Shown piece by piece: positions 24,800 through 63,509 of a stretch of DNA of 64,000 nt (its first letter is position 1; each line of letters starts with the position of its first letter). The stretch is from the NCBI GenBank assembly GCA_021845665.1, contig JAJZVO010000023.1:1-64000 (forward strand), written 5' to 3'. A program made the translations under genes and the position numbers. The notes beneath the pieces were generated by a model. It saw only the letters and a program-made list of their open reading frames with translations. It had not been told where the DNA came from and ran no database searches. This stretch comes from Bacteroidota bacterium (GTDB taxonomy: Bacteria; Bacteroidota; Ignavibacteria; Kryptoniales; JAKASW01).

Positions 24800-25951
24800 A
24801 TGGAACAGATCAAATTCGAGTGCGAGGTAGTAACCCCTATGTTCCTCGGTGGGGCTGATCAACGGGCTGAATTGCGCGCGCCTTCTATACGCGGTGCCAT
24901 GCGGTGGTGGTTCAGGGCTATGATGGGAGGTAATCTCTTCGGCCGTTCGAGGGATTTTCTCAAAGAGGTAAAAGATATTGAAGACGCGACTTTCGGGAGC
25001 ACGTCTGGTCAAGGAAGTTTCTCTTTGTCTGTCGAGCATAATGGGATCAAAGAGAAGGACTTTAGTTCACTCAACGGTTTCTTCTTGACATACTTGGGGT
25101 TTGGTTTGAAGGATAATAAGCGAAGATACATCCCGCCACTTTTTCCCTTTGATGTCGTCTTCAGATTCCATTCCTCCGATAGCCAGATCAAGAAGCTAGT
25201 CTTGGCGACCTTCTGGATGCTCTCAAATTTCGGAAATTTAGGCGCGAGAGCTACACGCGGTTTTGGATCATTCATTGTGAAAACCCCATTGGGAGACAAC
25301 CTTCCTATTGTCGAAAGTGCTGACAAACTAGAAGAGGGTCTCAGATGCGTCGCAGGGGAGAAATATTTCAATATCCCTTCCACTCCAACCGTCACCACGG
25401 TCCCGGCGTTTTCGATTGTCTATCCCGGTTTCTGGCAATGCATCGTCCCCACAAGCAGTAAATTTCAAAACAGTGACGCTGTGCTGTTAATGAACACGAT
25501 AGGTAAAGAATTCAGATTGAGCCGAGAGAATACTAGTAGTTCATTTATGAAAACCATCGGCGGAAAGACAATCAAGGGTTTTCACACAAATGACTATGCA
25601 GCAATTTCAAAATGGTCACCGCCACCTGCTGGAGCACCAGGCACCACAATCCCGAGTCAGACAGCGTTTGGGCTGCCTCATCAATTCCAGGGCTCTGGCG
25701 GTCTAAAGATCATGGTTGAAGGTGAGAATCGGTCCAGGCGCACATCACCCCTTCATATTCACGTGCACAAATTTGGCAAGACTTATTCTGTCAGCTTTCA
25801 GGTTTTCAAGTCACAATTCCTTGATTCGAATATCAAGATTCGAGACATGAACAATGCGACTCGAACTGAAATTCTGAGTGGTACACCTTCATACTCAGAC
25901 CTCGATGCCTTCATGACAAGTTTCTCGGGCAAGAAGGACATAGTCCTATGA
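24800..25951 (+). CDS. cmr1: Cmr1, type III-B RAMP subunit
   Basis: 383 residues; AGGGAG lies about 12 bases before the ATG. The N-terminal RAMP strand FECEVVTPMFLGGADQ is followed by the diagnostic LRAPSIRGAMRWWFRAMMGG (about 28-47), and LGARATRGFGSF gives the glycine-rich loop. Cmr1 caps the 3' end of the crRNA in the Cmr complex and helps engage target RNA. It is the first gene of a tight operon; its stop overlaps the cmr2 start. Confidence 0.93.
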   Translation: MEQIKFECEVVTPMFLGGADQRAELRAPSIRGAMRWWFRAMMGGNLFGRSRDFLKEVKDIEDATFGSTSGQGSFSLSVEHNGIKEKDFSSLNGFFLTYLGFGLKDNKRRYIPPLFPFDVVFRFHSSDSQIKKLVLATFWMLSNFGNLGARATRGFGSFIVKTPLGDNLPIVESADKLEEGLRCVAGEKYFNIPSTPTVTTVPAFSIVYPGFWQCIVPTSSKFQNSDAVLLMNTIGKEFRLSRENTSSSFMKTIGGKTIKGFHTNDYAAISKWSPPPAGAPGTTIPSQTAFGLPHQFQGSGGLKIMVEGENRSRRTSPLHIHVHKFGKTYSVSFQVFKSQFLDSNIKIRDMNNATRTEILSGTPSYSDLDAFMTSFSGKKDIVL

Positions 25952-27822
25952 CATCTTCTAATTCCCTTCTCCTCTTTTCTCTAGGTCCTGTTCAGGACTT
26001 CATAGCAGCTTCTCGTAAGACCAAGGACCTTTTTGGAGGGAGCTTGCTCCTATCCTATCTCTCTGGAATTGCTATAGAAACCGTCTCAAAATACACAGTG
26101 AACGGCAAACCGCTCGGAGTCGAGTCAATCATTTTTCCGTCGTTGAAGCATGAGAAGATAACTCCCCTCGGCACAGCATTTCCCAACAGATTTCTCGCAA
26201 TAGTTCCATCTGAAGAAGTGAAAGGAATCGCTACCGCAGCCGAGAAGTCTGTCCGCGACAAGATGCAGGAAATAGCCAACGGCGTCATCTCCCTGGGCTC
26301 GGCCCATTCTCTAGTAAACGAGATAAAGAGTGCGGGTGTCGATCAATACAAGTCACAGGTTGAAAACTTTGTGGAGTGTTACTGGGCTGCAGTTGAGTGG
26401 AATGGAGTACCAGCCGATTATGGAAGTACTTATGAACGGGTGGAAGGTGCTCTTGGCCAGCGAAAGCTGATAAGGAATTTCAAACAGATCGCGGAGCAAG
26501 GTGAGAAGTGTTCGCTCATCCCATCGCTCGTGGATGTGGTTAACGCCAAATCAAGTGGCGGAAAAGAGCGTCTCTCAGGGGTCGCTATTGTAAAACGCTT
26601 TTTTCCAGACTGGCAAAAAGCGGAATCTAAATTTCCTTCAACCAGCACAGTAGCCGTTTCTGATTTCGTGAAGGACATCCTCTTGCTCAGTAAGCAGCAC
26701 GAGAAAATCCGTAATCTGGCAGGAACCTTTGCCGAGAAGGTAAAAGCGGTCACATCGGAATTTGCAAGCCAACCACTGCCAATGACAAAGACACTCGCCG
26801 ATCAGAACAACCTGTCCGAATTTGCCACAATTGACGGCGACTGGTTCTTCGAAGATCAGTACGAATCTGAAAACCTTAGGAAAGCTCTCGAGGAAGAGAA
26901 GTCGAACTGGATATATCCAAGAGGGCCGGCTACCGCGGCTAAAAATGCATTACGAGCGTTGCTCAAAGGAGCGAAGGAATTGGATATTAATTCTCCCTCG
27001 AAATACTACGCGGTTATAAGGTTCGACGGAGACAGGATGGGGAAGTGGTTATCGGGTGCTTTTAGAAACTCCGTCTCCATTGATGCACACCGGCAATTGA
27101 GCGACAAGCTTCTTGAATTCTCCGGCAAGCTGAAGGAAATTGTTGAACGCCGACATTGTGGCCAAATAGTCTATGCCGGGGGCGACGATGTCCTTGCATT
27201 TGTTACCTTGCGAGATTGTCTAAATGTCTCAAAGGACATTCGGGAGGCTTACGCAATCATGGAGAATGCCGCCGCTGGCGGGGCGGGGGAGAAACCCACC
27301 GGAAGTCTTGGCATAGTAATCGCCCACCATAAAGATGATCTTAAGTCTGTCATGACCGAATCTAGAAGCGCTGAACATTTTGCCAAGGAGGCAATAGGTC
27401 GTGATGCTGTTTCCATATCTCTCCTGAAGAGATCCGGTGATCACACCACCAGCGGGGCAAAATGGAAACTTGATGGAAATCTCGATACTGTTGAGATACT
27501 CAACCAGTTCGGTAACTTTGTGAAGAACCGTGATCTTGCCAAGGGATTCATCTATGATTATGCCACTGAGTCGGATGTGCTGTCTGATGTTAACGTAGAC
27601 GCTGCCGGACAAGAGTTCAAAAGGCTTTTCCTCCGCCGACTTTCGCAGAAGAAAAAGAAAGCCACACCAAAGGCTGAGATAGTTGAAACAGTTTCAAAAT
27701 TCTGGAAGCTTGCAAAACTCAAGTATGAACAAAAAGACGAAAACGAGAAAGTCATTGCGACTTATCCGGCCTTTCCTCTGTTCGCAGCTGCACAGTTCAT
27801 CGCGAAAGGAGGCAATCAATGA
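25948..27822 (+). CDS. cmr2: Cmr2 (Cas10), cyclic-oligoadenylate synthetase, HD-less
   Basis: 624 residues, short for Cas10/Cmr2 (commonly 700-1,000). The N-terminus LLLFSLGPVQDFIAASRKTKDLFGGS is the normal start of the Cmr2 palm-like region, so no N-terminal HD nuclease domain is present. RFDGDRMGKWL (about 358) belongs to the first nucleotide-binding site, and YAGGDDVLAF (GGDD about 411-414) is the intact catalytic palm motif that makes cyclic oligoadenylates from ATP. The complex should therefore signal rather than cut DNA directly, which fits the many CARF proteins nearby. The stop overlaps cmr3. Confidence 0.93.
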   Translation: MTSSNSLLLFSLGPVQDFIAASRKTKDLFGGSLLLSYLSGIAIETVSKYTVNGKPLGVESIIFPSLKHEKITPLGTAFPNRFLAIVPSEEVKGIATAAEKSVRDKMQEIANGVISLGSAHSLVNEIKSAGVDQYKSQVENFVECYWAAVEWNGVPADYGSTYERVEGALGQRKLIRNFKQIAEQGEKCSLIPSLVDVVNAKSSGGKERLSGVAIVKRFFPDWQKAESKFPSTSTVAVSDFVKDILLLSKQHEKIRNLAGTFAEKVKAVTSEFASQPLPMTKTLADQNNLSEFATIDGDWFFEDQYESENLRKALEEEKSNWIYPRGPATAAKNALRALLKGAKELDINSPSKYYAVIRFDGDRMGKWLSGAFRNSVSIDAHRQLSDKLLEFSGKLKEIVERRHCGQIVYAGGDDVLAFVTLRDCLNVSKDIREAYAIMENAAAGGAGEKPTGSLGIVIAHHKDDLKSVMTESRSAEHFAKEAIGRDAVSISLLKRSGDHTTSGAKWKLDGNLDTVEILNQFGNFVKNRDLAKGFIYDYATESDVLSDVNVDAAGQEFKRLFLRRLSQKKKKATPKAEIVETVSKFWKLAKLKYEQKDENEKVIATYPAFPLFAAAQFIAKGGNQ

Positions 27823-28970
27823 AAGCGTTCATTGAGCCTTCCGACGTGCTCTTTTTCAGAGACGCACGCACTTTTAATCGCGGCGACGATCATATTGCGC
27901 GACTGATCTTTCCTCCATTGCCTATGCCATTCTACGGCGCGATCCGCAGTTCGATAATTGCAGAGAACTGGAACAACTTCAAAGAATTTGCAGGTGGGGC
28001 TAGTACAGGGGCGAGCAATGCCGTCGGGAGCAGCTCAAAACTCGGCACCATGTCTATTAGTCATTTCTCGCTTGCATCCAAGAAAGGGACAATTGTTGAA
28101 AGGCTCTACCCCATTCCGGGTGACCTGGTAGAAATCAAGGGAGGAAACGGCGCGAAGTTCCTGGTACTTTCGCCAAGAAAGATCCCTGCCGGGACCAAGA
28201 CAAATTTGCCTTCACCTGTGGACACGTGCGTTCTGGGACATGGAAGCGTTGGGCTTGAGGAGGCAAGGGGCTTTCTGAACACCCAGGGCCTTTCTAAATA
28301 CCTAGAGGGCAAAGAGATTACCGAGGACGACATCGTGAAGGAGGACGAAGTCTTCAGACGAGAATACAGGGTTGGCATTGCCAGAAGCAAAGAAACCGGC
28401 GTCGCTAAGGAGGGAATGCTATATAGTGCAGAGTTTGCGAGGCTCAACAAAAGTCACCGAGGCCAGGCAAGCTCGATCGGGTTCTTGCTTGAAATAAACG
28501 GCGAAGACGGCCTCCTAAAACCACGAAATGACAAGCCGAGAATACTCCGACTCGGCGGCGAGACTCGGACTGCCTATCTCGAAACGGAATTCAGTGAAGC
28601 ACCCGCCCCCGTATCAACTTCAAAAGTCCCGCGATTCAAATCTACCCTTCTCACTCCGGCGGTCTTCACTAATGGTTGGATTCCCGATGGAATCGATGCG
28701 ATCAGTGGAGAGGGGATTTTGAATGGGCACAGAGTAAGACTTGTCTCAGCAGCTGTTAATCGGCATGTCCCAGTCGGTGGGTGGGATATAGCGGCGCGGA
28801 GATCCAAGACAACGAAACGGGCAGTGCCGCAGGGAAGCGTGTATTATTTTGAGCTTCTTGACTCCACAACAATAGAGACGCCGCAGTTTTATTTCCCGCT
28901 TTGCAGGGACGAGTATTATTCCAAACAGGGCTTCGGCCTATCAATCATAGGAGACTGGAACTATGTATGA
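27819..28970 (+). CDS. cmr3: Cmr3, type III-B RAMP subunit
   Basis: 383 residues. PSDVLFFRDARTFNRGDDHI, RLIFPPLPMPFYGAIRSS and the C-terminal GFGLSIIGDWNYV are characteristic of Cmr3, the Csm4-like subunit that binds the crRNA 5' handle and contacts Cas10. The start overlaps the cmr2 stop and its own stop overlaps cmr4, so stoichiometric production is likely. No unusual features. Confidence 0.92.
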   Translation: MKAFIEPSDVLFFRDARTFNRGDDHIARLIFPPLPMPFYGAIRSSIIAENWNNFKEFAGGASTGASNAVGSSSKLGTMSISHFSLASKKGTIVERLYPIPGDLVEIKGGNGAKFLVLSPRKIPAGTKTNLPSPVDTCVLGHGSVGLEEARGFLNTQGLSKYLEGKEITEDDIVKEDEVFRREYRVGIARSKETGVAKEGMLYSAEFARLNKSHRGQASSIGFLLEINGEDGLLKPRNDKPRILRLGGETRTAYLETEFSEAPAPVSTSKVPRFKSTLLTPAVFTNGWIPDGIDAISGEGILNGHRVRLVSAAVNRHVPVGGWDIAARRSKTTKRAVPQGSVYYFELLDSTTIETPQFYFPLCRDEYYSKQGFGLSIIGDWNYV

Positions 28971-29877
28971 GCAAACCTTATTAGTTAGCCTTTACGCAGA
29001 AACCTCGCTTCATGTTGGAAGTGGTTCAAGCTTCGGAGTAATTGATCTTCCGATCCAGCGAGAAAAATACACGGATTTCCCGATGTGTGCCGCCAGTAGC
29101 CTGAAGGGAGCTGTAAGAGAATGGTTTGAAATCAAAGGAAAAGAAAAAGAGGATGGCATCACGCAGGATGATATCAACATCGTTTTCGGACCGAAAGACG
29201 GAAGCGATTTCGCCTCTTGCGTTGCTTTTGGCGACGCGCGTGTCCTCTTGTTCCCTGTTCGATCTGCCAAAGGAGTCTTCGCGTGGATAACATGCCCCAT
29301 GGTATTTAGCCGCTTTCTGATCGAACTTCATCGAGCTGGGTTCAAAGACATCCCAAAGCCACCCGACCAGGACGGTGGGAAGATCGGGGTCGAGGTTAAG
29401 ACCCAGGTCGTCCTTGCAGGCAATAAGATCTTGCTTGAAGAAAGCATTTTCGATATTTCAGAAAGAATATCCAGAGAGATGGAGGGGTTAGGAAAGTGGG
29501 TTTCGGACAACCTCTTCCCGAAGGGAGATGAATATAAATTTTGGAGAGACAGTGTAGCTTCCAGGTTGGTAGTTTTGCCGGACGATGACTTCACATACTT
29601 TGTTAAGCACTCCACCGAAGTCAACGCCAGAGTAAAGCTGAGTGACAAAAAGACAACCGAGGATGGAGGCAATCTATTCTATGAAGAGAATTTGCCGCCG
29701 GAAAGTATTCTATATGCTTCCATCTTTGCTTCACATCCTCATAGCGATGGTGGAAAGAGTCTACCTGATGCCTCGAGTGCAGCGACATTCATAAAGAAAC
29801 TCGGCGGAAAGAGGATGCAGCTTGGCGGCGATGAGACTGTCGGTCGCGGAATAATTAACGTCAGAATGCTGGGATAG
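28963..29877 (+). CDS. cmr4: Cmr4, backbone RNase subunit
   Basis: 304 residues, the usual size. The start of the fold (SLYAETSLHVGSGSSFGVIDLPIQRE) contains Asp28 in the loop equivalent to the catalytic aspartate that cuts target RNA at 6-nt intervals. CAASSLKGAVREWF is the conserved G-rich helix entry. The subunit repeats along the crRNA in the Cmr filament. The catalytic residue is present, so target RNA cleavage is expected. Confidence 0.93.
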   Translation: MYEQTLLVSLYAETSLHVGSGSSFGVIDLPIQREKYTDFPMCAASSLKGAVREWFEIKGKEKEDGITQDDINIVFGPKDGSDFASCVAFGDARVLLFPVRSAKGVFAWITCPMVFSRFLIELHRAGFKDIPKPPDQDGGKIGVEVKTQVVLAGNKILLEESIFDISERISREMEGLGKWVSDNLFPKGDEYKFWRDSVASRLVVLPDDDFTYFVKHSTEVNARVKLSDKKTTEDGGNLFYEENLPPESILYASIFASHPHSDGGKSLPDASSAATFIKKLGGKRMQLGGDETVGRGIINVRMLG

Positions 29878-29886
29878 GAGGCTCAC

Positions 29887-30279
29887 ATGAGTAAGGATCT
29901 TGAAAAACTTCGCGCGAAGAAGGCATGGGATATTGTTTCAGAAATTAACCGGGGTGAGGCTGAGCTCAAAGAGAAATACTCACAGGAGGCCCAGGGATTT
30001 CCCGTCGACATCATCTCGAACGGACTGTTGCAGACTCTCGCCTTTTATAGATTGGGTGGGGATGACATAACAAAGAAGGCAAGACGTAAACTTGCCGGGC
30101 ACCTGGAAAATTGGCTTTTCTCGACTGGCGAAGATGGTCCCAATATTCCATTCAGCACAGGCACAGCGAACTCCGTCCACAAGTTGATAAGTTCATCTGG
30201 CGAAGTATATCGTCAAGCCACGCTGGAGTCTCTTGCTTTCCTGCAATGGCTCAAACGCTTCTCAAAGATGGAGGAGTAA
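29887..30279 (+). CDS. cmr5: Cmr5, small helical subunit
   Basis: 130 residues, entirely helical. RAKKAWDIVSEIN and PVDIISNGLLQTLAFYRLGG match the Cmr5 pattern. GGAGG lies about 6 bases before its ATG. The protein forms the minor filament that stacks on Cmr4 and stabilises target binding. It sits in the canonical position between cmr4 and cmr6. Confidence 0.9.
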   Translation: MSKDLEKLRAKKAWDIVSEINRGEAELKEKYSQEAQGFPVDIISNGLLQTLAFYRLGGDDITKKARRKLAGHLENWLFSTGEDGPNIPFSTGTANSVHKLISSSGEVYRQATLESLAFLQWLKRFSKMEE

Positions 30280-30283
30280 GGAA

Positions 30284-31348
30284 ATGGCTCAATACCTATT
30301 GCCTGATGAAACGAGAAATGCTCTAACTGGTGCAAATCTAAATTTGCAGGAGCTGAATCTTTCCCTTCTCTCTAATCTCTACCTCAAAGTCTGGACCGAG
30401 ACCGCCGGGAATTGGGAAATTACCACGGACAGCAAGGAAGGGGGTTTCAACGCCATGAAGAGCGTTTACCAAAACCCTTTTCTGGAGAGCGTGAGAAACA
30501 GAGCTGAAGCATCTCTGGGTGGTTTCAAACAAAAAAAGTCATTCTCCCTTAAGACCAGCTGGCGAATGGTAGTAGGACTCGGAGCTCCCAATCCTCTGGA
30601 GAGCTCCATGACACTTCATCCAGTCTACGGCTTCCCTTACATACCGGCAACCGCTGTGAAGGGCATCGCCAGAGCGTGGGCCGAGAAACATGCCCCAATA
30701 ACACCTGCTGATAGAAAACAAATACTTCTCGAGATATTCGGTTCTGAGGACAAGTATAGTAAGGACAGCGAGAACCAGCAGGTTGGCGGAATAATATTCT
30801 TCGATGCACTTCCCAACGGTTTTCCAAAATTTGAAATTGACGTTATGACACCTCATTACTCTCAATATTACACGAAGGGGGAAGTGCCAGGTGATTGGTA
30901 CAGTCCAGTGCCGATTAAATTCTTGACGGTGGACACGGGATCTGAGTTCACCTTCTCGCTGGCAGCATCCAGAAGGTTGGATTCATCACGTTCCGATGAG
31001 CTCTTGAACCATGCCGCAGCTTTTCTCGAAGAAGGTCTCGTTAATTTGGGAGTAGGCGCGAAGTCTAATGCAGGCTACGGCTACTTTCTAGATCAGTCAG
31101 GCAAGCCTTCATCTGCCGCAGGATCTTCGGTTGAACCGGACATTTTTCGCGGTCAACTGACGCGTGAAGCACAAGTACCTGCCCATGTAGTTAGAAGCGA
31201 TGCAGGCAAGATAACCGTCAGGCTGCACACCGAAACACCTAATGAGGCTACCTTTACATACGCAGCGGGTATCCAGGTCGGGAAATGGGTCTGGGTTAAG
31301 GTCACAAACCCAAAATCTCTTTCCGTGCAATTCATAAAGTTTATCTGA
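30284..31348 (+). CDS. cmr6: Cmr6, type III-B RAMP subunit
   Basis: 354 residues from the ATG at 30284, preceded by GAGGAGTAAGG; an in-frame start at 30233 lies inside cmr5. VVGLGAPNPLESSMTLHPVY, PYIPATAVKGIARAW and the C-terminal GAKSNAGYGYF are typical Cmr6 motifs. The protein ends about 100 residues after the last RAMP motif with a basic beta-rich tail (about 285-354), slightly longer than many homologues. It forms the crRNA 3'-end side of the filament with Cmr1. Confidence 0.92.
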   Translation: MAQYLLPDETRNALTGANLNLQELNLSLLSNLYLKVWTETAGNWEITTDSKEGGFNAMKSVYQNPFLESVRNRAEASLGGFKQKKSFSLKTSWRMVVGLGAPNPLESSMTLHPVYGFPYIPATAVKGIARAWAEKHAPITPADRKQILLEIFGSEDKYSKDSENQQVGGIIFFDALPNGFPKFEIDVMTPHYSQYYTKGEVPGDWYSPVPIKFLTVDTGSEFTFSLAASRRLDSSRSDELLNHAAAFLEEGLVNLGVGAKSNAGYGYFLDQSGKPSSAAGSSVEPDIFRGQLTREAQVPAHVVRSDAGKITVRLHTETPNEATFTYAAGIQVGKWVWVKVTNPKSLSVQFIKFI

Positions 31349-31381: not shown

Positions 31382-32443
31382 TTGAATGCAAAGCAGCCAG
31401 CAGAATCGGCTATTCCTGATAATGGGAGCGCTGAGAATGACTTATTAGGCAAGGTACTCTCCTACGCTAAGCGTCTTCGCATCCTCGACCTTGGCTTTGA
31501 GATAGAATTCCTCTCCGATGTCGTCTTGCCAACTTACAAAGGCTCCACGCTCCACGGCGGGCTTGGCAGGGCTTTCCGAAAGCTCTACTGCACATGCGCA
31601 GAGCCGTTGCGGACACCGGATGAGAATGATAGCGAGGAGCAGTCCATCCATCACGAGGCAGAAGCCTGTCCTTATCATTTCATCTTCGAAACAAGAATCA
31701 ACGACAACGTCTTCAAGTTCCTGCGCAATGTCCCGAGCGTGCCGCACCCGTATTTGCTCGAACCGCCTCTCGACGAAAAGAAGGAATACATGGCAGGAGA
31801 AAGGCTGGCGTTCACCCTCAGGATTTTCGGTTCTGCCACAGGGTATGCGGTTAACATGATCGAAGCAGTTGCACTCTTCGGCAGACTCGGCGTGACCAGG
31901 GCAAGCGTTCACTTCAGGATTGTTCGGGTGACATCAATAGGCGCCGGAAGGAAACAGAATGTCATTTATGATGGCGCCTCGAACACCTATCTGGCGATTC
32001 CAAAACCCTATCGTTGGAAGCCCCGGGAAGAAAGCCCTCTATCTCACGAGTTGATGATCCGTTTTCTTTCACCGACTCGGCTTGTCAAGAGCGAACATTT
32101 ACAGGAGAACGTTGACTTCTTGATTATTTTGACCTCTCTCATCAGAAGGCTCGCGGCTCTCGCATACTACGCTGAAGGATTGAAGAACGCCGTGAAACTG
32201 ACCGAAGGAGTCAACATCTCCGCCAATAACGTTAGATTGATCAAACAGGACATCGATTGGAAAGCCTGGCGTCGGTATTCCAACCGGCAATCAACCGCCA
32301 TGCTGTTAGGGGGAGTGGTCGGAGAGTTGACTTTTGGAAACGTCACCGAGGATTTGCTGCTGTTGCTTGAATTCGGAAAGCTACTCCATCTTGGAAAGCA
32401 GACTACCTTTGGCCTGGGAAAATATGAAATCGCTCAGAAGTGA
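31382..32443 (+). CDS. cas6: Cas6, pre-crRNA processing endoribonuclease
   Basis: About 353 residues from a TTG at 31382; no ATG is available before the RAMP fold. LPTYKGSTLHGGLGRAFRKLYC opens the ferredoxin-like fold of the Cas6 group that has a cysteine-containing insertion (C-T-C-A...EACPYHFIFETR). The C-terminal glycine-rich loop is LHLGKQTTFGLGKYEI. It cuts the repeat RNA to leave an 8-nt 5' handle, here predicted to be ATGGAAAC. It overlaps cas2 by four bases, so the adaptation and processing genes follow cmr in one transcript. Confidence 0.9.
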   Translation: MNAKQPAESAIPDNGSAENDLLGKVLSYAKRLRILDLGFEIEFLSDVVLPTYKGSTLHGGLGRAFRKLYCTCAEPLRTPDENDSEEQSIHHEAEACPYHFIFETRINDNVFKFLRNVPSVPHPYLLEPPLDEKKEYMAGERLAFTLRIFGSATGYAVNMIEAVALFGRLGVTRASVHFRIVRVTSIGAGRKQNVIYDGASNTYLAIPKPYRWKPREESPLSHELMIRFLSPTRLVKSEHLQENVDFLIILTSLIRRLAALAYYAEGLKNAVKLTEGVNISANNVRLIKQDIDWKAWRRYSNRQSTAMLLGGVVGELTFGNVTEDLLLLLEFGKLLHLGKQTTFGLGKYEIAQK

Positions 32444-32721
32444 AACCGGAGCTGCTCGACTTTGTCGTCTCCTACGACATAACGGATAACAGAAAGAGAA
32501 AGAAGATAGCCGACATACTCGACGAGTATGGACACAGGGTTCAATACAGTGTCTTTGAAATCACCGTACCATCGAATGATTTCAGTAAGCTTCGTTCGCG
32601 ACTGATAAAACATCTTCGACAATCGACTGATACGATCAGGTATTATTCTCTCTGCCAGAAATGCGTCGCTAAGGTTTCATTTGACAGTGCCAAACGAAAA
32701 GGTGGTGAGAATAAACCCTGA
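32440..32721 (+). CDS. cas2: Cas2, adaptation protein
   Basis: 93 residues from a GTG that overlaps the cas6 stop. VVSYDITDNRKRKKIADILDE and HRVQYSVFE are the classic Cas2 ferredoxin-fold motifs, with the conserved Asp in SYDI. TIRYYSLCQKC is the C-terminal part. It forms the integration complex with Cas1. About 400 structured non-coding bases separate it from the RT-cas1 gene. Confidence 0.95.
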   Translation: MKPELLDFVVSYDITDNRKRKKIADILDEYGHRVQYSVFEITVPSNDFSKLRSRLIKHLRQSTDTIRYYSLCQKCVAKVSFDSAKRKGGENKP

Positions 32722-33126: not shown

Positions 33127-35409
33127 ATGAATCAGCAGTACAAATTTGAATGGGCGGAACAATCCTTGCGTTACGCGTTTCAAGGTATAGCTGCCAAAGG
33201 CTCCCGCGGAGGCATCGACAGAGTAACCGCAGAAGCCTATTCAAAGAACCTGCACTCAAATCTGTCAGCGCTGCTCAAACGCTTGCAGGAGGGGACTTAT
33301 GTTCCGTCACCCTATGAAAAGATATCCATACCAAAAGATGGCGGGTCGGTACGTATTCTCAGCCTCGCGACGGTCGAGGACAAAATAGTCCAGAGCATTG
33401 TAATGCATTATCTCGATGATACCTTCAAAGGCGTTTTTCTTGATTGCTCCTATGCTTACCGGGAAAACAAAGGCCATAAGAAAGCTATCGGCAGAGTCGA
33501 GCATTCACTCAGGGCTGCCCGCTCAGAGATGACTGCCGATGTAGACAATTTCTTTGACTCGATCGATCATTCAATCCTCGAATCCCAGCTTGCAGAAAGA
33601 ATCAAGGATGACCGGCTGCTCACACTAATCCGATTATGGATCACCACCGATTCTATCCATGATTCAAGACTCCAGAAAAGAAACATCGGCATTCCGCAGG
33701 GCGGACCCGTCTCGCCCATACTCTCGAACATCTACCTTTCTCCATTCGACAGGTTCATGGTCGGCCTCGGCAGGGCTTATATCCGCTATGCGGATAATTT
33801 CATTGTCTTCTCCGAAAACAAAAACGAGCTGGTCGAGATATTTAACCGGGCAGTCGATTACCTTCGCAGAAACCTCAGGCTCAGGCTCAACGAAGCAACT
33901 CCCGTGATATGTACTGAGGAGGAAGGCTTCGATTTTCTCGGCATCCATTTTAAAAACGGGAAGAGGACCATTGCCGACAGTAAGTTCACAAAGGCACTCA
34001 AGGAACCGGACGAGCTGAGGAGGAGACATCGTAAGGATAGCCTGGAGCGCTTGCGCGACCACTGGAACAAGATGGTACAATCATGGAGATTCTACTATGG
34101 GCCGTTTGACGTTGCAGAGCAGTTCTCATCACTAAGGCAGGAATTGCAAAAGAACCTCAGGCAGGAAATACTCTACCGGGCACAGCATGAAGAGATTCCC
34201 GAAGCAAAACTCGGAGAGATCATTTGTTCATTTGACTCCCTGACTGCGAACCCGAATGAGAACCGTGACTTTGCCGGAAGGATACTCGGTGAGATTAAGG
34301 AATTCCGAAAAGGGCGGGCCGACGGGAAGGAGGTACAGATTGCCCGAACGAGAGCCGCAAAAGTGAGGAAATTTATTCACCTCCACGTTGCCGAACACAA
34401 TCTCCTTGTGTCAACCCCGGGTTTCTTCATCGGAAGGTCGCAGGGAAAGATCCAGGTGAGGAAAGGACAGGAAGTTGTGACCGAACAACCCCTGCGAAGC
34501 ATTCACAATCTGATGCTTTCCGATCATGGCATCGGCATCTCCACCGATGTGATTGCCGAATGCGTTGAGAAGAAAACCCAGATTTTTATCGTGGACTCGA
34601 TCGGACATTACAGGGCGCTCATTATAGGAGACCCGTGGCCTCAGTTTAGCATCACTCTTTCCCAGGTCAATGCAGCCAACAGCTGGCTGGGCTCCCAGTG
34701 CGCGTTCAATTTCGTCGATGCGAAGATCAGGAATCAGGTCAACCTTCTTCGTTACTACGCCAAGTATCATTACGATGCAAACAGAAACTACGCTGAGGTC
34801 ATCTCCAAAGAAATCCCACGGATGGAGAAGGTGCTGACCGACATTTCCGCGCTGAATAGGAAAGGGTCTCTTCCAGGTGAGTACAATTCGGCAGTTTTCG
34901 GTCTTGAGGGACAGGCGGCCATTTCCTACTGGGCATGCATCGCCGCATTAATTGGAGACGAATGGGCCTTTACAAAGAGAGAACATCAGAACGCCGCAAA
35001 TATTGTTAACAAGATGCTCAATTACGGTTACGGCGTCCTGTCGTCGAAAATCCTCATCGCGATTATTTCGAGCGGATTGAACCCAATGATCAGCTTCCTG
35101 CATTCTGCCCAGGAAGGGAGACCATCTTTGGTCTTCGATGTCATGGAGCAATTCCGCCCCACTTGTGTGGACAGGGTCGTGGTCAGCATGTTGCTTCGAA
35201 AGGAAAGAGTCGAGAAAGACGGTGAGAAACTCCCGATCGAGCTGAGGAAAAGGATTGCCAGCGGGGTGCTGACGAAGATGGGCACTGAGTTCCAGTACCG
35301 CGGGAAAAGGCAGACAATCGAGGAAATACTGGCTAAACAGCTCGGCGATGTAGTCGAATTCCTCCAGGGGAAAACAAGAAACTTCAGGGCATTCCTCTCG
35401 AGATGGTGA
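33127..35409 (+). CDS. RT-cas1: reverse transcriptase-Cas1 fusion
   Basis: 760 residues. The N-terminal 330 or so are a group II intron-like RT: IDRVTAEAY, YEKISIPKDGGSVRILSL, the motif A aspartates in ADVDNFFDSIDH (about 137-148), GIPQGGPVSPILSNIY (188-203), and the active-site box YADN (221-224), where most RTs have YADD. The C-terminal 350 residues are a full Cas1: HNLLVSTPGFFIG, the catalytic Glu region VFGLEGQAAISYW, and SFLHSAQEGRPSLVFDVMEQFRP with the catalytic His and acidic residues. Fusions of this type let type III systems acquire spacers from RNA. There is no N-terminal Cas6 domain; cas6 is a separate gene. Confidence 0.95.
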   Translation: MNQQYKFEWAEQSLRYAFQGIAAKGSRGGIDRVTAEAYSKNLHSNLSALLKRLQEGTYVPSPYEKISIPKDGGSVRILSLATVEDKIVQSIVMHYLDDTFKGVFLDCSYAYRENKGHKKAIGRVEHSLRAARSEMTADVDNFFDSIDHSILESQLAERIKDDRLLTLIRLWITTDSIHDSRLQKRNIGIPQGGPVSPILSNIYLSPFDRFMVGLGRAYIRYADNFIVFSENKNELVEIFNRAVDYLRRNLRLRLNEATPVICTEEEGFDFLGIHFKNGKRTIADSKFTKALKEPDELRRRHRKDSLERLRDHWNKMVQSWRFYYGPFDVAEQFSSLRQELQKNLRQEILYRAQHEEIPEAKLGEIICSFDSLTANPNENRDFAGRILGEIKEFRKGRADGKEVQIARTRAAKVRKFIHLHVAEHNLLVSTPGFFIGRSQGKIQVRKGQEVVTEQPLRSIHNLMLSDHGIGISTDVIAECVEKKTQIFIVDSIGHYRALIIGDPWPQFSITLSQVNAANSWLGSQCAFNFVDAKIRNQVNLLRYYAKYHYDANRNYAEVISKEIPRMEKVLTDISALNRKGSLPGEYNSAVFGLEGQAAISYWACIAALIGDEWAFTKREHQNAANIVNKMLNYGYGVLSSKILIAIISSGLNPMISFLHSAQEGRPSLVFDVMEQFRPTCVDRVVVSMLLRKERVEKDGEKLPIELRKRIASGVLTKMGTEFQYRGKRQTIEEILAKQLGDVVEFLQGKTRNFRAFLSRW

Positions 35410-35820: not shown

Positions 35821-35834
35821 CTTTGAAAACCTGA
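35652..35834 (+). CDS. doubtful small ORF inside the leader
   Basis: 60 codons with GGAGGG about 6 bases before the ATG, a good ribosome-binding site. The product is basic, contains three cysteines and runs into the first CRISPR repeat before stopping. It resembles nothing known. It might be a fortuitous frame in the leader; the ribosome-binding site is the only positive evidence. Confidence 0.2.
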   Translation: MVKTTLRSSRVQISAKCEWSCERNEYGYVNCSDGASSAARGYLQRGDEIHNLLRKRSLKT

Positions 35835-37717
35835 CTTATGGTTGAAGGATGGAAACCAAAACAGATTTTAATGTTTCGCTGTCAAATGTTTCTTTGAAAA
35901 CCTGACTTATGGTTGAAGGATGGAAACAATCTCCACGAGACATTACCACACTAACTATCTTGTCCTTTGAAAACCTGACTTATGGTTGAAGGATGGAAAC
36001 AAATATGGAACAGTTTTTGCGGCGGTATACGCAAACCACTTTGAAAACCTGACTTATGGTTGAAGGATGGAAACGACCGTCAAAGTCCCCAATTAATCCG
36101 CGGTCGTGCATGTCTTTGAAAACCTGACTTATGGTTGAAGGATGGAAACCCTGGAGCCAATAGAAATAGGTTCCGGAAGGAAGACGCGCTTTGAAAACCT
36201 GACTTATGGTTGAAGGATGGAAACAGTCCGGACAGTCGTCGGGACACTGCTCGCAAGGGCACTTTGAAAACCTGACTTATGGTTGAAGGATGGAAACTGT
36301 CCTCCTCAATGTAGGAGGTGTGAAGTATCTGTATCTCTTTGAAAACCTGACTTATGGTTGAAGGATGGAAACTGTCCACGGCGCTCCAAGTAAGGCCGCC
36401 ATCGGTACTTTGAAAACCTGACTTATGGTTGAAGGATGGAAACAGAGATGTGATGTCCGCATTCCAATCGGTGGTATCTGGCTTTGAAAACCTGACTTAT
36501 GGTTGAAGGATGGAAACTCTGACTCAACGCGAAGGTTGTTGGAACAGGCGGGTTATCCTTTGAAAACCTGACTTATGGTTGAAGGATGGAAACGCGCAGA
36601 AGTGATGGTTCACGTCCGAACAAACGGCGACCTTTGAAAACCTGACTTATGGTTGAAGGATGGAAACGCCGGAGTTACTACACGTTTCGAGATACACCAC
36701 TGAATCGCTTTGAAAACCTGACTTATGGTTGAAGGATGGAAACGGGACATAATGTCTCGCACCTCGTGCTCGGTCACATCACCCTTTGAAAACCTGACTT
36801 ATGGTTGAAGGATGGAAACGAACTTTCCGGGCTATCAGTGTAACCACTAAAAAGGACCCTTTGAAAACCTGACTTATGGTTGAAGGATGGAAACAGATTG
36901 GTGAAAATCAGTTGCGGGGAACTTGCCGCTTTGAAAACCTGACTTATGGTTGAAGGATGGAAACAGTAGTACTGAGACCAATAAATATTTCCTACAGCTT
37001 CTGGCTTTGAAAACCTGACTTATGGTTGAAGGATGGAAACTCTGCGAGTTTCCGTCTTGCGGTAGTAGATGTAACCTACTTTGAAAACCTGACTTATGGT
37101 TGAAGGATGGAAACAGATAACCACCATAATCGCCGTTTGAATAACTAATATTCCCTTTGAAAACCTGACTTATGGTTGAAGGATGGAAACAAGCTGAACG
37201 TTGTGGCGACGGGCGGGTTATCAACGACCTTTGAAAACCTGACTTATGGTTGAAGGATGGAAACTATACAGCTCTTCCGCTGTCCCCTCGGGGAATTCCT
37301 CGGGCTTTGAAAACCTGACTTATGGTTGAAGGATGGAAACGCTTTTTTCGAGCTTTCTTCCAACCCCATGTCGTACTTTGAAAACCTGACTTATGGTTGA
37401 AGGATGGAAACTCTGTTCTTCAGAAGGTTTTCCATCGAAACACTTCCGTTTTCTTTGAAAACCTGACTTATGGTTGAAGGATGGAAACAATTTCTGGTCG
37501 ATAGGAGACCGACTGAACGGCTGCCTCGAGAGGCTTTGAAAACCTGACTTATGGTTGAAGGATGGAAACGTGGTCGCAGCGGTAGGTGGAATTTGGATCC
37601 ACCGCTTTGAAAACCTGACTTATGGTTGAAGGATGGAAACGAGAATTTGGCTGAACCTTCCCCGGTCGGTACCAATAAGACCTTTGAAAACCTGACTTAT
37701 GGTTGAAGGATGGAAAT
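35821..37717 (+). CRISPR. type III CRISPR array, 26 repeats and 25 spacers
   Basis: The 36-base repeat begins CTTTGAAAACCTGACTTATG and ends GTTGAAGGATGGAAAC. Repeat starts are at 35821, 35892, 35965, 36039, 36114, 36189, 36262, 36337, 36408, 36482, 36558, 36632, 36708, 36784, 36859, 36929, 37005, 37079, 37155, 37229, 37305, 37376, 37453, 37534, 37605 and 37682. Spacers are 34-45 bases, mostly 35-41. The repeats looked uniform except the last, which ends GGAAAT, marking the distal end. The expected crRNA 5' handle is ATGGAAAC. Spacers at 36518-36557 and 37191-37228 target related coding sequences. Confidence 0.98.
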
Positions 37718-37896
37718 TCCAAAGTTGCCCACTTAGACCGCGAAGCGGGGTAAGCGGCAGCAACTCTGAGAATCCCGCCGAAGGCTTACTCGAGGCGTCG
37801 ATCGATACCCGTTGGTTTGTAGTGCGCTTGTAAGTTTCGCTGAATCTTGCTATCGTATTTTCAACAATCGGTGCCTTAGATACGAGGTTGAGCAGA

Positions 37897-38367
37897 ATGG
37901 ACGAGTTCTTCGAACACTTGGAGTATGATCTGACAAGCCGGCTCTTGCATCAGCTTAGATTTGAAAAGAAGTTACAGAAGAGGTTGCGTTCGCGGAGAAA
38001 CGCGACCGAAGAGACGGATGATGCGTATTCTGACTATAGTTTAGGGACGATCTGGGTCGTTGACGACCACAAGGTGCATTTTCGCGGTCGGCGCGACGAA
38101 AAATCATATCATGACGGAAGGCGGCCAGGGGTAGTTATCGTCTCTCCCTGCAAAGAGACGCGTTACGAGGTCTGCTGGATCCCGGGATCATCCAAAATCG
38201 CGGGGCGACCTATAGCCCGTATAGTGGTCAGCGAGAACTCGGCCTATCTCTTGTGCGAAAAAGAGTGGTATCGTCCTCAGACTCTCGAATCGAAGAGAGG
38301 AGACTTGCCCCCCGACAAGCTTCTCGAACTGCGGCACAAATGGGATGAACTGGAATGCGATGAGTAA
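37897..38367 (+). CDS. PemK/MazF-like protein
   Basis: About 156 residues from the ATG at 37897, with GAGG about 10 bases upstream; a TTG at 37888 is in frame. After an N-terminal charged helical segment (about 1-45) comes a PemK/MazF-type SH3-like barrel: SLGTIWVVDD, RRPGVVIVSP, IARIVVSENSAYLL and a C-terminal helix LPPDKLLELRHKWDEL. MazF-family proteins are usually mRNA interferases, but a homologue serves as the sigma-binding partner in the CalpL-CalpT-CalpS type III signalling module. It overlaps the sigma-like gene by eight bases and is the first gene after the CRISPR array. Confidence 0.65.
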   Translation: MDEFFEHLEYDLTSRLLHQLRFEKKLQKRLRSRRNATEETDDAYSDYSLGTIWVVDDHKVHFRGRRDEKSYHDGRRPGVVIVSPCKETRYEVCWIPGSSKIAGRPIARIVVSENSAYLLCEKEWYRPQTLESKRGDLPPDKLLELRHKWDELECDE

Positions 38368-39364
38368 CCGCTTTCAGGATAACCTGGCAGAACTTGTAAC
38401 TCTTATCCGCAAGCTCCGAAATGAATCTACTCTGAAGCCGAAAGAGCACGCGAGTGTTAACAAGCGGTTTGATCGAGTTCTTGCCGAGTTCGTTCACTCT
38501 ATGGCGTCCTCATACTCAACTTACCCCTATACATTAGATGAGTTCAAGGATCTCCTGGGAGAAGTTCAAAAGAACATCGCAACAAATCTTCTTAGAAAAG
38601 ATGCCTTTGAAAATGGAGATACCATCGACGGAGCCCCCGACGATCGGATTAAAGGATGGATAAAAACAACCACGAGTAACGCGCTCAGGAACGACCCCTC
38701 CCCTCAAAAGAGAGACTATCGTTACCTGTTGACGACAATCAATAACACTCTGAAGAGGATGGAAAATTCAGGAGAATTTGACTCTTCTAAAATTGTGGAA
38801 TATCGTTTTGAAGAGTTGAGACGAAAGATTCTTAATGAGATTGACGTGTCAGAGTCCAAAGGGAAAAGCCTTGCCAGGAAGGTCGCAGAAATTGCGAGGA
38901 GGATACTAAAATTGGCCGGCGGTATGATCGAGCGACGCGATTTGAATGATTTGGTTAGCGAGATCACTGGCATTTACAAACCCGTCAAGGAGAGTCCTGG
39001 AGACGAGTCGAACAAGAATGTTGTCGATGATATTCCATCGGTTGACGATTTACCAAAAGAGATAATCATTGACATTGAGTCTGCAACCGAACGCCTTCTG
39101 ACACGCCTCGAAGGGCGGAAGGATCCACGATTGTTGCCAATACTTTGCTATAAATTTGTTCATGAGTTGACTTATAGGGAGATTCAATCGAGGACTAAGA
39201 TACCGAAGCAGACTCAGGATTTTCTTCTTAAACGAAGGATACTACCAGATCTCTACAACGCGATCAAGAATTGCAGCAGGGATCCCGACTATAGAATCGT
39301 TGCAAAGTTTCGTGAAAAGGTTTTAGAAGGTTTGAGCAAAAGGGGGATACAATGCGAAGCCTGA
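38360..39364 (+). CDS. sigma-factor-like protein
   Basis: About 334 residues from the ATG at 38360, overlapping the previous stop. Residues about 45-115 resemble sigma region 2 (LDEFKDLLGEVQKNIATNL, RIKGWIKTTTSNALRND). Near the C-terminus, LLPILCYKFVHELTYREIQSRTKIPKQTQDFLLKRRILPDL reads as a region 4-type helix-turn-helix. The two parts are separated by a long charged, helical linker, so it is larger than an ECF sigma factor (about 180-200 aa). It would redirect RNA polymerase once freed from an inhibitor. The next gene starts 13 bases before its stop, the usual arrangement for sigma/anti-sigma pairs. The sigma call is from motif resemblance. Confidence 0.6.
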   Translation: MSNRFQDNLAELVTLIRKLRNESTLKPKEHASVNKRFDRVLAEFVHSMASSYSTYPYTLDEFKDLLGEVQKNIATNLLRKDAFENGDTIDGAPDDRIKGWIKTTTSNALRNDPSPQKRDYRYLLTTINNTLKRMENSGEFDSSKIVEYRFEELRRKILNEIDVSESKGKSLARKVAEIARRILKLAGGMIERRDLNDLVSEITGIYKPVKESPGDESNKNVVDDIPSVDDLPKEIIIDIESATERLLTRLEGRKDPRLLPILCYKFVHELTYREIQSRTKIPKQTQDFLLKRRILPDLYNAIKNCSRDPDYRIVAKFREKVLEGLSKRGIQCEA

Positions 39365-40545
39365 GCCAGAGAAAGGGCAAATCGCAACGTCTCCCGGAGA
39401 TTCCGGACAGATATGAGATTGCCGAGTATGTTCAGGGGAGACTTTCAAAAAGCCGGCGAAAGCAGATAAAAGAGTTGCTTGAGTCTGATGACCCTGTTGC
39501 AATAGGTGTGAAGATTGACTTTGAAGAAATAAAGAGCCGTATTAAAGCCATGCCCTTCAGACCGCTTTCTAGTAATGCAACCGGTGTGCTTCAAGCTCGC
39601 ATGCAGGCGGTCCTCAGACATTCAGGGATGCCAGCCCCGGGGGAAATATGGTCACTTCAGTTGCAGAAATCTAATTCCGGGATCTCCAGAGATCGATCCG
39701 TTTTGATCTTTCATATCCATGGCGGATTCGCGCGAGTTGCACCAGTGACTAAGGAAACCGATTTTGCCGGTCCGCGTGATATTATTGTGCGCGACCGATC
39801 CTATGCCTTCGTGCCTTTCATGCTCGAGTTGTTCGCGTCATTCTGGACTGATTTGAGTCTGCTAACTGATCAAGGCGAATTCGAAGCCCGTGTTTCAGAG
39901 AAGACTCTTTCTGCAGCACGTAGAGCGGACAGGGGCATCTATAGCAATTTGCCTCGCGGCGTCAGACGCGGCTCCGTCCAGGAAATATCAGACATTGAAG
40001 AGTTCCATGAGGAATGGCGAGAAGGAGAGCGGATGCTCTTTGAAAAATTCAAAACAACACCGTACGTGCTGGAAGAATTCGAAGCGGCTGATGTCGAGAA
40101 GGTAGCTGAACCACAGTCGATACCCATCCCTGTCTCTTTCATTTCGTACCAACAGCCCACGCAATACGTGTACCGTCTCGCCGCGGCTGACCAGACATTC
40201 ACGGTCTCTGAATTCCAATTCTGGGAAAAGGAAAGGGGCCTTTCTGGCCAAATGCGTCGCCTCATTCTCCAGGCCCCATCCTTTGAAGTGCGTGTCTCGA
40301 TAGTCGATGGCCACCTCTTCTTGGTTGCTGAACGAGCCGACAAGTCACCGAAGATTGTATCAGACGTTTCCTTGTCCAGTGGTGAAACAAACATTCTCAC
40401 TACGGAGAACTCCGTTCAGTTCTCAACATCCCAGAGAGTTCATCTTCATTTTGATGTTGATCCTGCACTCCCTCTCACAGGGCGGTGGATTTTGCGTTTC
40501 AGCCTTGATGATAAGGGGTATCAGAACGAGGTCGAATTCAAATGA
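39352..40545 (+). CDS. PemK/MazF-core protein, candidate anti-sigma factor
   Basis: 397 residues. The N-terminal 55 residues (RYEIAEYVQGRLSKSRRKQIKELLES) look like the helical sigma-binding segment of cytoplasmic anti-sigma factors, without the zinc ligands. Residues about 95-145 have a PemK/MazF-like barrel: GEIWSLQLQKSNSGISRDRSVLIF, FARVAPVTKETDFAGPRDIIV. The remainder is an unrecognised beta-rich region with an Ig-like end (TGRWILRFSLDDKGYQNEVEF). Position between a sigma-like gene and a Lon-like protease gene mirrors CalpS-CalpT-CalpL, where a MazF homologue holds the sigma factor until cleaved. The anti-sigma role is an inference. Confidence 0.55.
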   Translation: MRSLSQRKGKSQRLPEIPDRYEIAEYVQGRLSKSRRKQIKELLESDDPVAIGVKIDFEEIKSRIKAMPFRPLSSNATGVLQARMQAVLRHSGMPAPGEIWSLQLQKSNSGISRDRSVLIFHIHGGFARVAPVTKETDFAGPRDIIVRDRSYAFVPFMLELFASFWTDLSLLTDQGEFEARVSEKTLSAARRADRGIYSNLPRGVRRGSVQEISDIEEFHEEWREGERMLFEKFKTTPYVLEEFEAADVEKVAEPQSIPIPVSFISYQQPTQYVYRLAAADQTFTVSEFQFWEKERGLSGQMRRLILQAPSFEVRVSIVDGHLFLVAERADKSPKIVSDVSLSSGETNILTTENSVQFSTSQRVHLHFDVDPALPLTGRWILRFSLDDKGYQNEVEFK

Positions 40546-41714: not shown

Positions 41715-41721
41715 CGCGACC

Positions 41722-43128: not shown

Positions 43129-43521
43129 ATGCTTATCAACCTCTCAAATCACCCGCTAACAGCATGGGATAACTCGCAGCGACATGCCGCACAAGAAGAG
43201 TACGGTCTGTTAGCCGACCTTCCGTTCCCACCTGTTCCAGCTAACGCCGGGTTGCAGGAAGTCCAACAGAAAGTGGAAGAATACATTTCGCTCTGTCAGG
43301 CTATGTTTGACGATTACTTCCAGACCGGAGGAATTGCTGACAAGAATCGCAACGCAATACATGTTATGGGGGAATTCACTTTCGTCTATTTGTTTGTTGC
43401 CCGTTGCCGGAAGTTGTCGATTCCGTGTGTCGCGTCCACCACGGATCGCATTGTTGTCGATAATACGGACGGTTCCAAGACAACCCGCTTCAACTTCTTG
43501 CAATTCAGGCCTTACTTCTAA
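43129..43521 (+). CDS. small CRISPR-associated protein, candidate ring nuclease
   Basis: 130 residues. MLINLSNHPLTAWDNSQ, YGLLADLPFPPVPANA and the C-terminal VVDNTDGSKTTRFNFLQF give a Rossmann-like pattern seen in short proteins encoded next to type III effector genes, some considered candidates for cyclic-oligoadenylate ring nucleases (Csx15-like). The resemblance is from memory and no catalytic residues are established. It lies between two CARF effector genes and ends one base before the next ATG, so it could limit the lifetime of the signal. Confidence 0.45.
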   Translation: MLINLSNHPLTAWDNSQRHAAQEEYGLLADLPFPPVPANAGLQEVQQKVEEYISLCQAMFDDYFQTGGIADKNRNAIHVMGEFTFVYLFVARCRKLSIPCVASTTDRIVVDNTDGSKTTRFNFLQFRPYF

Positions 43522-52343: not shown

Positions 52344-52352
52344 GGTATGACC

Positions 52353-53372
52353 ATGAAGAATGCAATTCTGATTACTCTGGTGATCATTGTTTCCGGTCTG
52401 AAGTGCTATTCCCAGAACATTTCTCGGGGCCAAACAATCGTTGCCGGTGAATATTTCACCAATATAGACCCTGGCGCTGGGAACGGAACGCCGATATCTG
52501 CAAACTATGGGTCCGCAGCTGCCAATGCGTCATTCACCGCTCAGGTTCCGCCCGGAGAGGTCCTCTATTTCAGATTCGAGAGTTCCGACGGTACTTGGAG
52601 TACTCCGCAACCGGTCCTCGGTGGAGCCTCGTCAAGTTCCGGAGCCAGTCTAGTCGCCGGAGAATATTCCATAGACTCTGATCCTGGAATCGGAAAGGCG
52701 ACATCGTTCTCCGTTAGCACAAATGGAAAGATCGCTATTTCCCCACCTCCGATGACAAGAGGTGACACACTCTATATGCGGGTTAAGGATTCTTACGGAA
52801 GGTGGAGTCCGACAAGCGTGGTCAAGTACGATTTTATTAGCATTGCTGATGCGCAGTACTACATAAAGTATGCAAATGGAACAACAACTCAGTCAGCTGA
52901 GATGTCTCTCATAGACTCACTTCAGAACTACCCGGTCTTCGTTGCCGTGTCATCTAGCATACCGGCACTTACGAATTTCGATACAGTTTACGCCCGTGTC
53001 CGGAGTGAGAACGGATTTTGGAGCGCATGGTCCCAATCAGCCGGCGTTCTAACGGCAATCCAAGGGGATGACATAAGCGTTCCCGGAGAGTTTAGACTCT
53101 TTCAGGCTTATCCCAATCCTTTTAATCCATCGACGACAATCGAGTATGAGCTTCCTGAAAGATCACATATCTCGATAATCGTATATGATGTTCTAGGCAG
53201 AAATGTCAGGACATTGGTAAATGAGAATGAACCAGCGGGGACTTACCGGGTCATTTTTGACGCAGCCAATGTCCCTAGCGGAGTGTACTTCTATAGGCTT
53301 GTTGCGAGTGGAGTCGAGCCGTCCGCCGCAGGAGGTTTTGCAGACACAAAAAAATTCACGGTTCTTAAATAG
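52353..53372 (+). CDS. secreted protein with type IX sorting domain (first copy)
   Basis: About 339 residues from the ATG at 52353 (52347 also in frame). After a signal peptide, two EYF/EYS...DPG repeats with FRFESSDGTWS-type strands form the body. The C-terminal 80 residues are a type IX secretion signal: AYPNPFNPSTTIEYELPE, ISIIVYDVLGRNVRTLV, VPSGVYFYRLVA. The cargo is exported by the T9SS and cleaved at the cell surface. It starts a few bases after the beta-helix gene and is paralogous to 61069-62187. Confidence 0.8.
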   Translation: MKNAILITLVIIVSGLKCYSQNISRGQTIVAGEYFTNIDPGAGNGTPISANYGSAAANASFTAQVPPGEVLYFRFESSDGTWSTPQPVLGGASSSSGASLVAGEYSIDSDPGIGKATSFSVSTNGKIAISPPPMTRGDTLYMRVKDSYGRWSPTSVVKYDFISIADAQYYIKYANGTTTQSAEMSLIDSLQNYPVFVAVSSSIPALTNFDTVYARVRSENGFWSAWSQSAGVLTAIQGDDISVPGEFRLFQAYPNPFNPSTTIEYELPERSHISIIVYDVLGRNVRTLVNENEPAGTYRVIFDAANVPSGVYFYRLVASGVEPSAAGGFADTKKFTVLK

Positions 53373-62252: not shown

Positions 62253-63509
62253 ATGAAAAACATTTTCGGATTCTTGTTGGCGATCCTCTTTATGTACGGC
62301 AACTCCGCTTCAGTATGCGCCCAATGGGTGCAAACCGGCATCCTTGGTGGCGGCGCTCCGCAGGTCAAGTCGCTTGCCGCGACCGGGAAGTACGTTTTTG
62401 CGGGAACCGACAGCGGCGTCTTCGTGTCCACGAACGAGGGAGCGACTTGGACCCAGTCGAACGCGGGCCTAACGGACACGAACGTGCCGAGTCTTGCCGT
62501 GTACGGTTCGGCGGTCTTCGCTGGCACCCATGACGGGGTCTTCCGTTCGATCGACTACGGCACGACATGGAACGCGGCGAACTCCGGGCCGATGCAAAAC
62601 ACTGACGTTGCAGCCCTTGTTTTCAAGGGGTCAGATCTCTTCGCAGCCACTTTCGGGAACGGCATTTTCGTCTCTTCCGACCAAGGCACATCTTGGAGCC
62701 AGACGGATTCGGGAATCACCGATTCCTATTTCTTCTGCCTCGCGGTGAGCGGATCCAATATCGTGGCAGGAGGGGAGGCCGGTGCCTTCCTCTCAACTGA
62801 TAACGGAGCAAGCTGGAATGCGGTATCGAACGGCCCTTGGGGATACAATGTCCGAGCGCTCGCTGTCTCAGGTGGGAATCTCTACGCCGGAGTGGATGGG
62901 AACTACGATACCAAGTGCATCTACCGCTCGACCGACAACGGGGCGAGCTGGACAGCGCTCGATGGAAGCTCGTCGGGTGGCACTGTGTACGCCTTTGCGG
63001 TGAGTGGCATGAGCGTATTCGCGGGCGGGAATGTCAGTGTCGTCTTGTCCACGGATAACGGGACGTCGTGGACGGATGCGGCCTCTTGGGATAACTGTAC
63101 CTTCGCGAACAGCATCGTTTCCGCTCTGGCCATAGGAGACACGAATCTGTATGCCGGAACGGCACTCATTCAACCCATCGGCGTATTCCGGCGGCCTCTT
63201 TCGCAGATGGTAACTGCTGTGCGAGATGAGGGGACGGCACCCCCTCATGCATTCCTTCTCTCCCAGAACTATCCCAATCCATTCAACCCTTCAACCATAA
63301 TCGAATACGCCGTACCGAACAAGCTTCACGTGATACTGATTGTCTACGATGTACTTGGCAGAACAGTTGAGACACTCGTCGATGAAAAAGAAGCTCCGGG
63401 AACATACAAGGTTCTCTTCGACGCGAGTTGCCTGCCGAGCGGCGTGTATTTCTACAGAATCTTCGCTGGACACTTCGTGGAAACAAAAAAATGCTTGGTA
63501 ATCAAGTGA
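62253..63509 (+). CDS. secreted BNR/sialidase-repeat-like protein with type IX sorting domain
   Basis: 418 residues. After a signal peptide, repeated blades of the form GVFVSTNEGATWTQSNAG, GVFRSIDYGTTWNA, GIFVSSDQGTSWSQ, AFLSTDNGASW contain the Asp-box-like S-x-D-x-G-x-(T/S)-W motif of beta-propeller proteins (photosystem II HCF136/sialidase type). The C-terminus is a T9SS sorting signal (NYPNPFNPSTIIEYAVPN, LIVYDVLGRTVETLV, LPSGVYFYRIF). It is probably a surface protein; no enzymatic residues were identified. Confidence 0.8.
   Translation: MKNIFGFLLAILFMYGNSASVCAQWVQTGILGGGAPQVKSLAATGKYVFAGTDSGVFVSTNEGATWTQSNAGLTDTNVPSLAVYGSAVFAGTHDGVFRSIDYGTTWNAANSGPMQNTDVAALVFKGSDLFAATFGNGIFVSSDQGTSWSQTDSGITDSYFFCLAVSGSNIVAGGEAGAFLSTDNGASWNAVSNGPWGYNVRALAVSGGNLYAGVDGNYDTKCIYRSTDNGASWTALDGSSSGGTVYAFAVSGMSVFAGGNVSVVLSTDNGTSWTDAASWDNCTFANSIVSALAIGDTNLYAGTALIQPIGVFRRPLSQMVTAVRDEGTAPPHAFLLSQNYPNPFNPSTIIEYAVPNKLHVILIVYDVLGRTVETLVDEKEAPGTYKVLFDASCLPSGVYFYRIFAGHFVETKKCLVIK

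Follow-up and report, generated by a model that had tools for sequence, protein, structure and literature searches.

Reverse transcriptase (RT)-linked type III CRISPR arrays are known for spacers without an identified source, a point made in passages of the work on Arthrospira platensis (PMC5513706). In the type III-B system of Marinomonas mediterranea, passages of the published account place cmr1-6, cas6, cas2, RT-cas1 and the array in one locus and state that interference needs antisense guides (PMC5576922). On the side of possible targets, Cryophage is reported to carry T9SS cargo genes that vary between phage variants (PMC7468147), T9SS cargo is also reported for crAss-like phages (PMC6949934), and the self-targets of P. 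gingivalis spacers are said to include a T9SS sorting-domain gene (PMC13055991). Among the matches listed in our literature searches there was no relevant report joining CRISPR spacers and T9SS cargo, the P. gingivalis paper having come up through the phage/T9SS search. Here we describe a Bacteroidota locus in which two such themes meet: an RT-linked type III-B array with spacers that can be assigned to exported-protein domains by profile.

The window (the whole 64,000-nt stretch of DNA analysed here) contains an intact type III-B system with RT-Cas1, Cas2, Cas6 and Cmr1-6, all on the plus strand. The effector genes for Cmr1, Cas10/Cmr2, Cmr3, Cmr4, Cmr5 and Cmr6 (24800..31348) are followed by those for Cas6 (31382..32443), Cas2 (32440..32721; PF09827) and, directly before the array, an RT-Cas1 fusion for spacer acquisition (33127..35409), in which PF00078 and PF01867 lie in one 760-aa frame. 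The Cas10 translation keeps GGDD. The active reverse transcriptase motif is YADD; the RT-Cas1 of the window reads YADN, as related fusions read YADN or YSDN in seven of eight cases and YADD in one, and with YADN in place of YADD, RNA as the source of spacers is uncertain. Downstream of the array, the four genes at 37888-41714 show, in order, no family match, a sigma region 4-like end (by eye), no family match and a Lon_C protease, a set that we presume to be reminiscent of CalpL/CalpT/CalpS as a candidate likeness. Two further genes each join a CARF domain to another: a Csx1/NE0113-like CARF with a RelA/SpoT domain at 41611-43041 (PF09623 + PF04607), which may act on (p)ppGpp as a type III effector, and a Cas_NE0113 CARF with a sigma-54 activator domain at 43307-45163, a candidate cOA-controlled transcription activator.

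The array itself (35821..37717, plus strand) has 25 spacers between 26 repeats of 36 nt, the last of which carries one mismatch. Across 13 genomes of the genus, the repeat pattern was present in this genome alone; in a sister genome whose RT-Cas1 is 95 percent identical, the contig ends at the first repeat. A 24-nt piece of the repeat resembles, with one gap, the antisense of one of the genome's own T9SS genes (C70:23209-23239, locus L038), where the matched stretch reads by eye as the codons for PSTIIRF; this likeness is probably due to chance. The orientation of the crRNAs was read from the repeat end, GGAAAC, and from the degenerate last repeat at 37682-37717.

The first-pass annotation of this DNA had picked out two spacers, which we call S10 and S19, as targeting one DNPPV-containing motif in antisense. 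Their positions and translations are correct (the minus-strand frames read DNPPVPTTFALSQ and VVDNPPVATTFS, respectively), and the crRNA orientation given above does make the guides antisense to the DNPPV frame. The adjoining system is likewise of type III-B, where antisense guides are needed. What the motif is, and thus what it can tell us, proved to be another matter. The peptide DNPPVPTTFALSQ, encoded by the minus strand of S10 (36518..36557), is the entry of the T9SS type A sorting domain, 'VPxxFALSQ|NYPNPFNP', and the crRNA is antisense to it. We take this C-terminal domain to be TIGR04183 / PF18962, with a full length of 72 residues. Residues such as VPxxFALSQ precede NYPNPFNP in the genome's own domains (34 distinct entries listed), and the own-genome sequences most like S10 are T9SS entries that share its register. 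A spacer that the first-pass annotation left unnamed, S5 (36150..36188), encodes RLPSGTYFYWLQ on its minus strand, the end of the same sorting domain, so that S5 and S10 match its opposite ends. When all 25 spacers were scored in six frames against a profile built from 84 own-genome domains, S5 (27.2 bits) and S10 (26.7 bits) stood out, both in antisense, from a third-best spacer at 13.5 bits. Their scores were not reached by any control, whether Markov (2,000; maximum 21.8 bits) or window fragment (2,000; maximum 18.4 bits), and none of 100,000 further Markov null spacers reached 26.7 bits (maximum 24.4). The residues specific to the type A domain are present in both, at the entry in S10 and at the end in S5.

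A third spacer, S8 (36373..36407), encodes TDGGLTWSAVD on its minus strand, an Asp-box/BNR repeat that scores 26.8 bits against an Asp-box profile, a score reached by 0 of 2,000 null spacers. It follows the S-x-D-x-G-x-T-W motif, the leading S lying outside the spacer frame. The Asp-box domain co-occurs with the T9SS sorting domain in exported proteins, and the window encodes a protein of this kind (62253..63509, plus strand), whose Asp-box repeats and T9SS sorting domain are the domain pair of S8 and S5/S10; another of the host's own T9SS sorting-domain proteins lies at 52347..53372 (plus strand). An independent view of the three spacers comes from a BLAST search in which the entire array was queried against 294 class genomes; it returned 46 rows, two in the own genome and 44 outside it, and 29 loci from the latter were read. 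Both loci matching S10 were T9SS entries (their alignments start in the repeat, which inflates spacer identity), all three matching S5 were T9SS domain ends, and all six matching S8 were Asp-boxes (STDGGLTW); at each of these 11 loci the crRNA would be antisense to the gene. The remaining 18 of the 29 loci had no common domain.

These identities change the meaning of the motif, which had been offered as a tag for finding one virus family. For DNPPV as an export tag, the role of marking one such family is not supported: the domain that it opens occurs at least 150 times in the own genome (150 among the scored candidates, of 185), as well as on plasmids and a few viral contigs, and an entry so frequent in the host and rare in viral records makes a poor handle on a virus. 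Nor did the proposed searches lead to one. A degenerate DNPPV[PA]TTF scan picked up a single viral locus, which was unrelated, and 20 loci in genomes, with no T9SS gene among them, and in 20 genomes of the order its sole match was the array itself; in phage and plasmid collections every match to the whole array had E > 0.5. Searched with a T9SS query, phage records gave 0 of 50,697 and plasmid records 13 of 72,556, while a second query, from the viral locus L222, found two weak matches in phage records (E 0.2 and 0.6). Viral contigs held 31 T9SS loci on 29 contigs, where the best spacer match was 26/39 and none was close, and exact 21-23-mers of S10, S5 and S8 were absent from the viral contigs as a whole; in the collections searched, no protospacer was found on a viral contig. 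The suggestion that both spacers were taken from homologous genes of related viruses is supported in part: S10 is antisense to coding sequence and S19 is like it, and no viral source gene was found in these collections.

A viral source is still plausible: phages can carry a T9SS sorting domain, as shown by L222 and by the published Cryophage (PMC7468147). At L222, on a 210-kb viral contig, the T9SS-tagged gene (4359-5270) lies between genes for a T4-like major head protein (3.4e-70) and a head-tail adaptor. A PHROGs scan of 20 neighbouring proteins, around eight of the 31 viral loci, placed others next to a DnaB helicase (L215) or near a ribonucleotide reductase (L210), an integrase (L220), a homing endonuclease (L233) and a virion structural protein (L208; 2e-9); two loci with one neighbouring protein each (L211, L219) gave no PHROGs match.

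The six other RT-Cas1 arrays that we collected from the class and phylum hold 146 spacers (59, 13, 29, 2, 28 and 15), none of which scored above 17.8 bits against the T9SS profile. T9SS matching is thus a property of the present array, with the qualification that the profile was built from the own genome. In one of these arrays (L163), the spacer at 11242-11278 reads KDKGKTWVHLTN in antisense and resembles an Asp-box, with a score of 17.8 bits that is close to the highest null score (18.0). The spacers at 9157 and 12501 of the same array cover nearly one protospacer, shifted by two bases and in the same orientation.

How S19 (37191..37228) fits into this picture bears on a different origin for the original pair. 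S10 and S19 are the most alike of the 25 spacers (local score 17, against 10 for the runner-up pair), and a best-pair score of at least 17 occurred in one of 300 simulated spacer sets (about 0.003); a chance likeness is unlikely, yet the evidence is not overwhelming. Both could be sense-strand pieces of coaX (...KVVATGGLS...), the gene for type III pantothenate kinase (CoaX, TIGR00671); the T9SS reading of S10 in antisense would then be a coincidence, and these crRNAs would be unable to pair with mRNA. A coaX profile from 18 relatives indeed gives S10 21.3 and S19 20.5 bits (0 of 2,000 null spacers in each case), and many of the 20 genome loci from the DNPPV[PA]TTF scan resembled antisense coaX when named by eye. 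S19 taken alone fits coaX, in an open sense frame through VVATGG, better than the T9SS entry, against which it scores 11.7 bits, within the null. Codon positions do not help here. Differences between the two spacers had been said to fall largely at third positions, and four of five mismatches do so in an ungapped 27-nt alignment (p 0.045), but the sense frames, KLNVVATGGLST for S19 and *LNAKVVGTGGL for S10, have a third-position lattice identical to that of the antisense frames, so the mismatch pattern cannot choose between T9SS and coaX. What does weigh against coaX is S10, whose sense frame through KVVATGG is interrupted at the first codon by a TGA stop, whose best in-register coaX DNA identity (26/40, among loci of 20 order genomes) is no better than that of its T9SS partners, and whose T9SS score exceeds its coaX score. 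The unbiased class search for S10 returned T9SS loci and no coaX, and S5 matches the same T9SS domain independently. We therefore take S10 as T9SS, regard an origin in coaX as improbable, and lean towards T9SS for S19 through its likeness to S10. An accidental resemblance of short peptides to domains has in its favour that they are merely 11-13 residues long and that protospacers were not found; with 0 of 100,000 null spacers at the scores of S5 and S10, 0 of 2,000 at that of S8, and three separate spacers of 25 involved, we consider it very improbable indeed.

A more serious question is whether the source was foreign at all. The host has a full-length SprA, and its 150 T9SS domains make up 0.73 percent of the genome, so that random host sequence would contribute 0.18 of 25 spacers, and two or more with P 0.014; the T9SS spacers are thus only mildly above random-host expectation, which separates foreign from self poorly. 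The spacers might have come from transcripts of the host itself or of a close relative, captured by RT-Cas1 regardless of origin; the gene might later have disappeared or diverged, or the spacers might be regulatory. Besides the abundance of the domain, this account can draw on M. mediterranea, where RT-Cas1 is described as taking spacers from host RNA (PMC5576922), and on the self-targeted T9SS gene reported for P. gingivalis (PMC13055991). A search of 142 fetched own T9SS loci and the window, with 150 domain places known, gave best matches of 27/39 for S5, 26/40 for S10, 24/38 for S19 and 23/35 for S8, and the source gene is not among the own T9SS loci examined (142 + window); against the own genome, the whole array matched itself and otherwise only weakly. 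Further against a self or kin origin, 0 of the 146 spacers in the six related arrays match the T9SS domain, and all three assigned spacers (S5, S8, S10) are antisense, the orientation that, in the passages on M. mediterranea, is selected against for host-gene spacers when Cmr is active (PMC5576922). Taken with the complete Cmr set, the 3/3 antisense orientation favours a foreign source. Array-wide, a codon test gave a total of +11.8 nats (expected: all sense -31, sd 9; half +1, sd 11; all antisense +33, sd 9) and a maximum-likelihood antisense fraction of 0.75 (range 0.4-1.0), so that 'all sense' alone is clearly excluded. Overall, we consider a self or kin origin rather unlikely, if the strongest of the competing accounts.

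We thus favour, at somewhat better than even chances, a reading in which T9SS domains supplied S5, S10 and probably S19, and an Asp-box supplied S8, with foreign exported-cargo genes as their likeliest source. The source would be one or a few such genes, perhaps of a single family, carried by a mobile element such as a phage or plasmid, with cargo domains that differ from the host's own. Against this reading count the failure of every collection searched to yield a protospacer and the lack of comparable spacers in the six related arrays. RT-Cas1 and Cas2 would have inserted fragments of the cargo genes, taken from either RNA or DNA, into the array; the crRNAs would then pair with the foreign cargo mRNA and guide the Cmr complex, which would cut the transcript, and Cas10, with its GGDD kept, might then signal to the CARF proteins encoded nearby. 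Beyond domain identity and orientation, these steps draw on established type III knowledge or on our own inference. We also entertain, tentatively and with less confidence, the more specific idea that one mobile gene like that at 62253-63509 gave rise to S8, S5 and S10, all confined to a run of six adjacent spacers, and that a related gene supplied S19.

If this more specific idea is right, an RT-linked III-B system would distinguish secretion cargo of foreign origin from a tag that the host itself carries in about 150 copies, and some 'enigmatic' RT-linked spacers would derive from fast-changing cargo genes, visible to domain profiles and not to DNA searches. In this array, spacers without a DNA match could be assigned by a profile of a domain present in 150 host copies. 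Were the source mobile cargo, type III immunity would be tied to T9SS cargo carried by phages or plasmids, and the question would become how a guide against a tag common to 150 own genes avoids autoimmunity; were it self or kin, antisense host-like spacers would have been kept beside an intact Cmr system.

Set beside the systems described so far, the locus thus has several partial counterparts. Like the spacers of P. gingivalis array 30.1, those described here are tied to a T9SS sorting-domain gene, although self-targeting is reported there (PMC13055991), whereas the own T9SS genes examined here match at 27/39 or less. Cryophage, with its variation between phage variants (PMC7468147), and the crAss-like phages (PMC6949934) are reported to offer just such foreign genes with a T9SS type A sorting domain, though none of the collections searched yielded a phage with these protospacers. 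With the M. mediterranea system, as far as its account describes it, the locus shares its gene content and the need for antisense guides (PMC5576922), and differs in having some spacers assignable to a protein domain and perhaps in its YADN motif. Finally, as passages on the A. platensis III-B system also report (PMC5513706), DNA search finds no protospacer; here, by contrast, three of the 25 spacers can be assigned, two by the profile of a paralogue-rich domain and one by that of the Asp-box.
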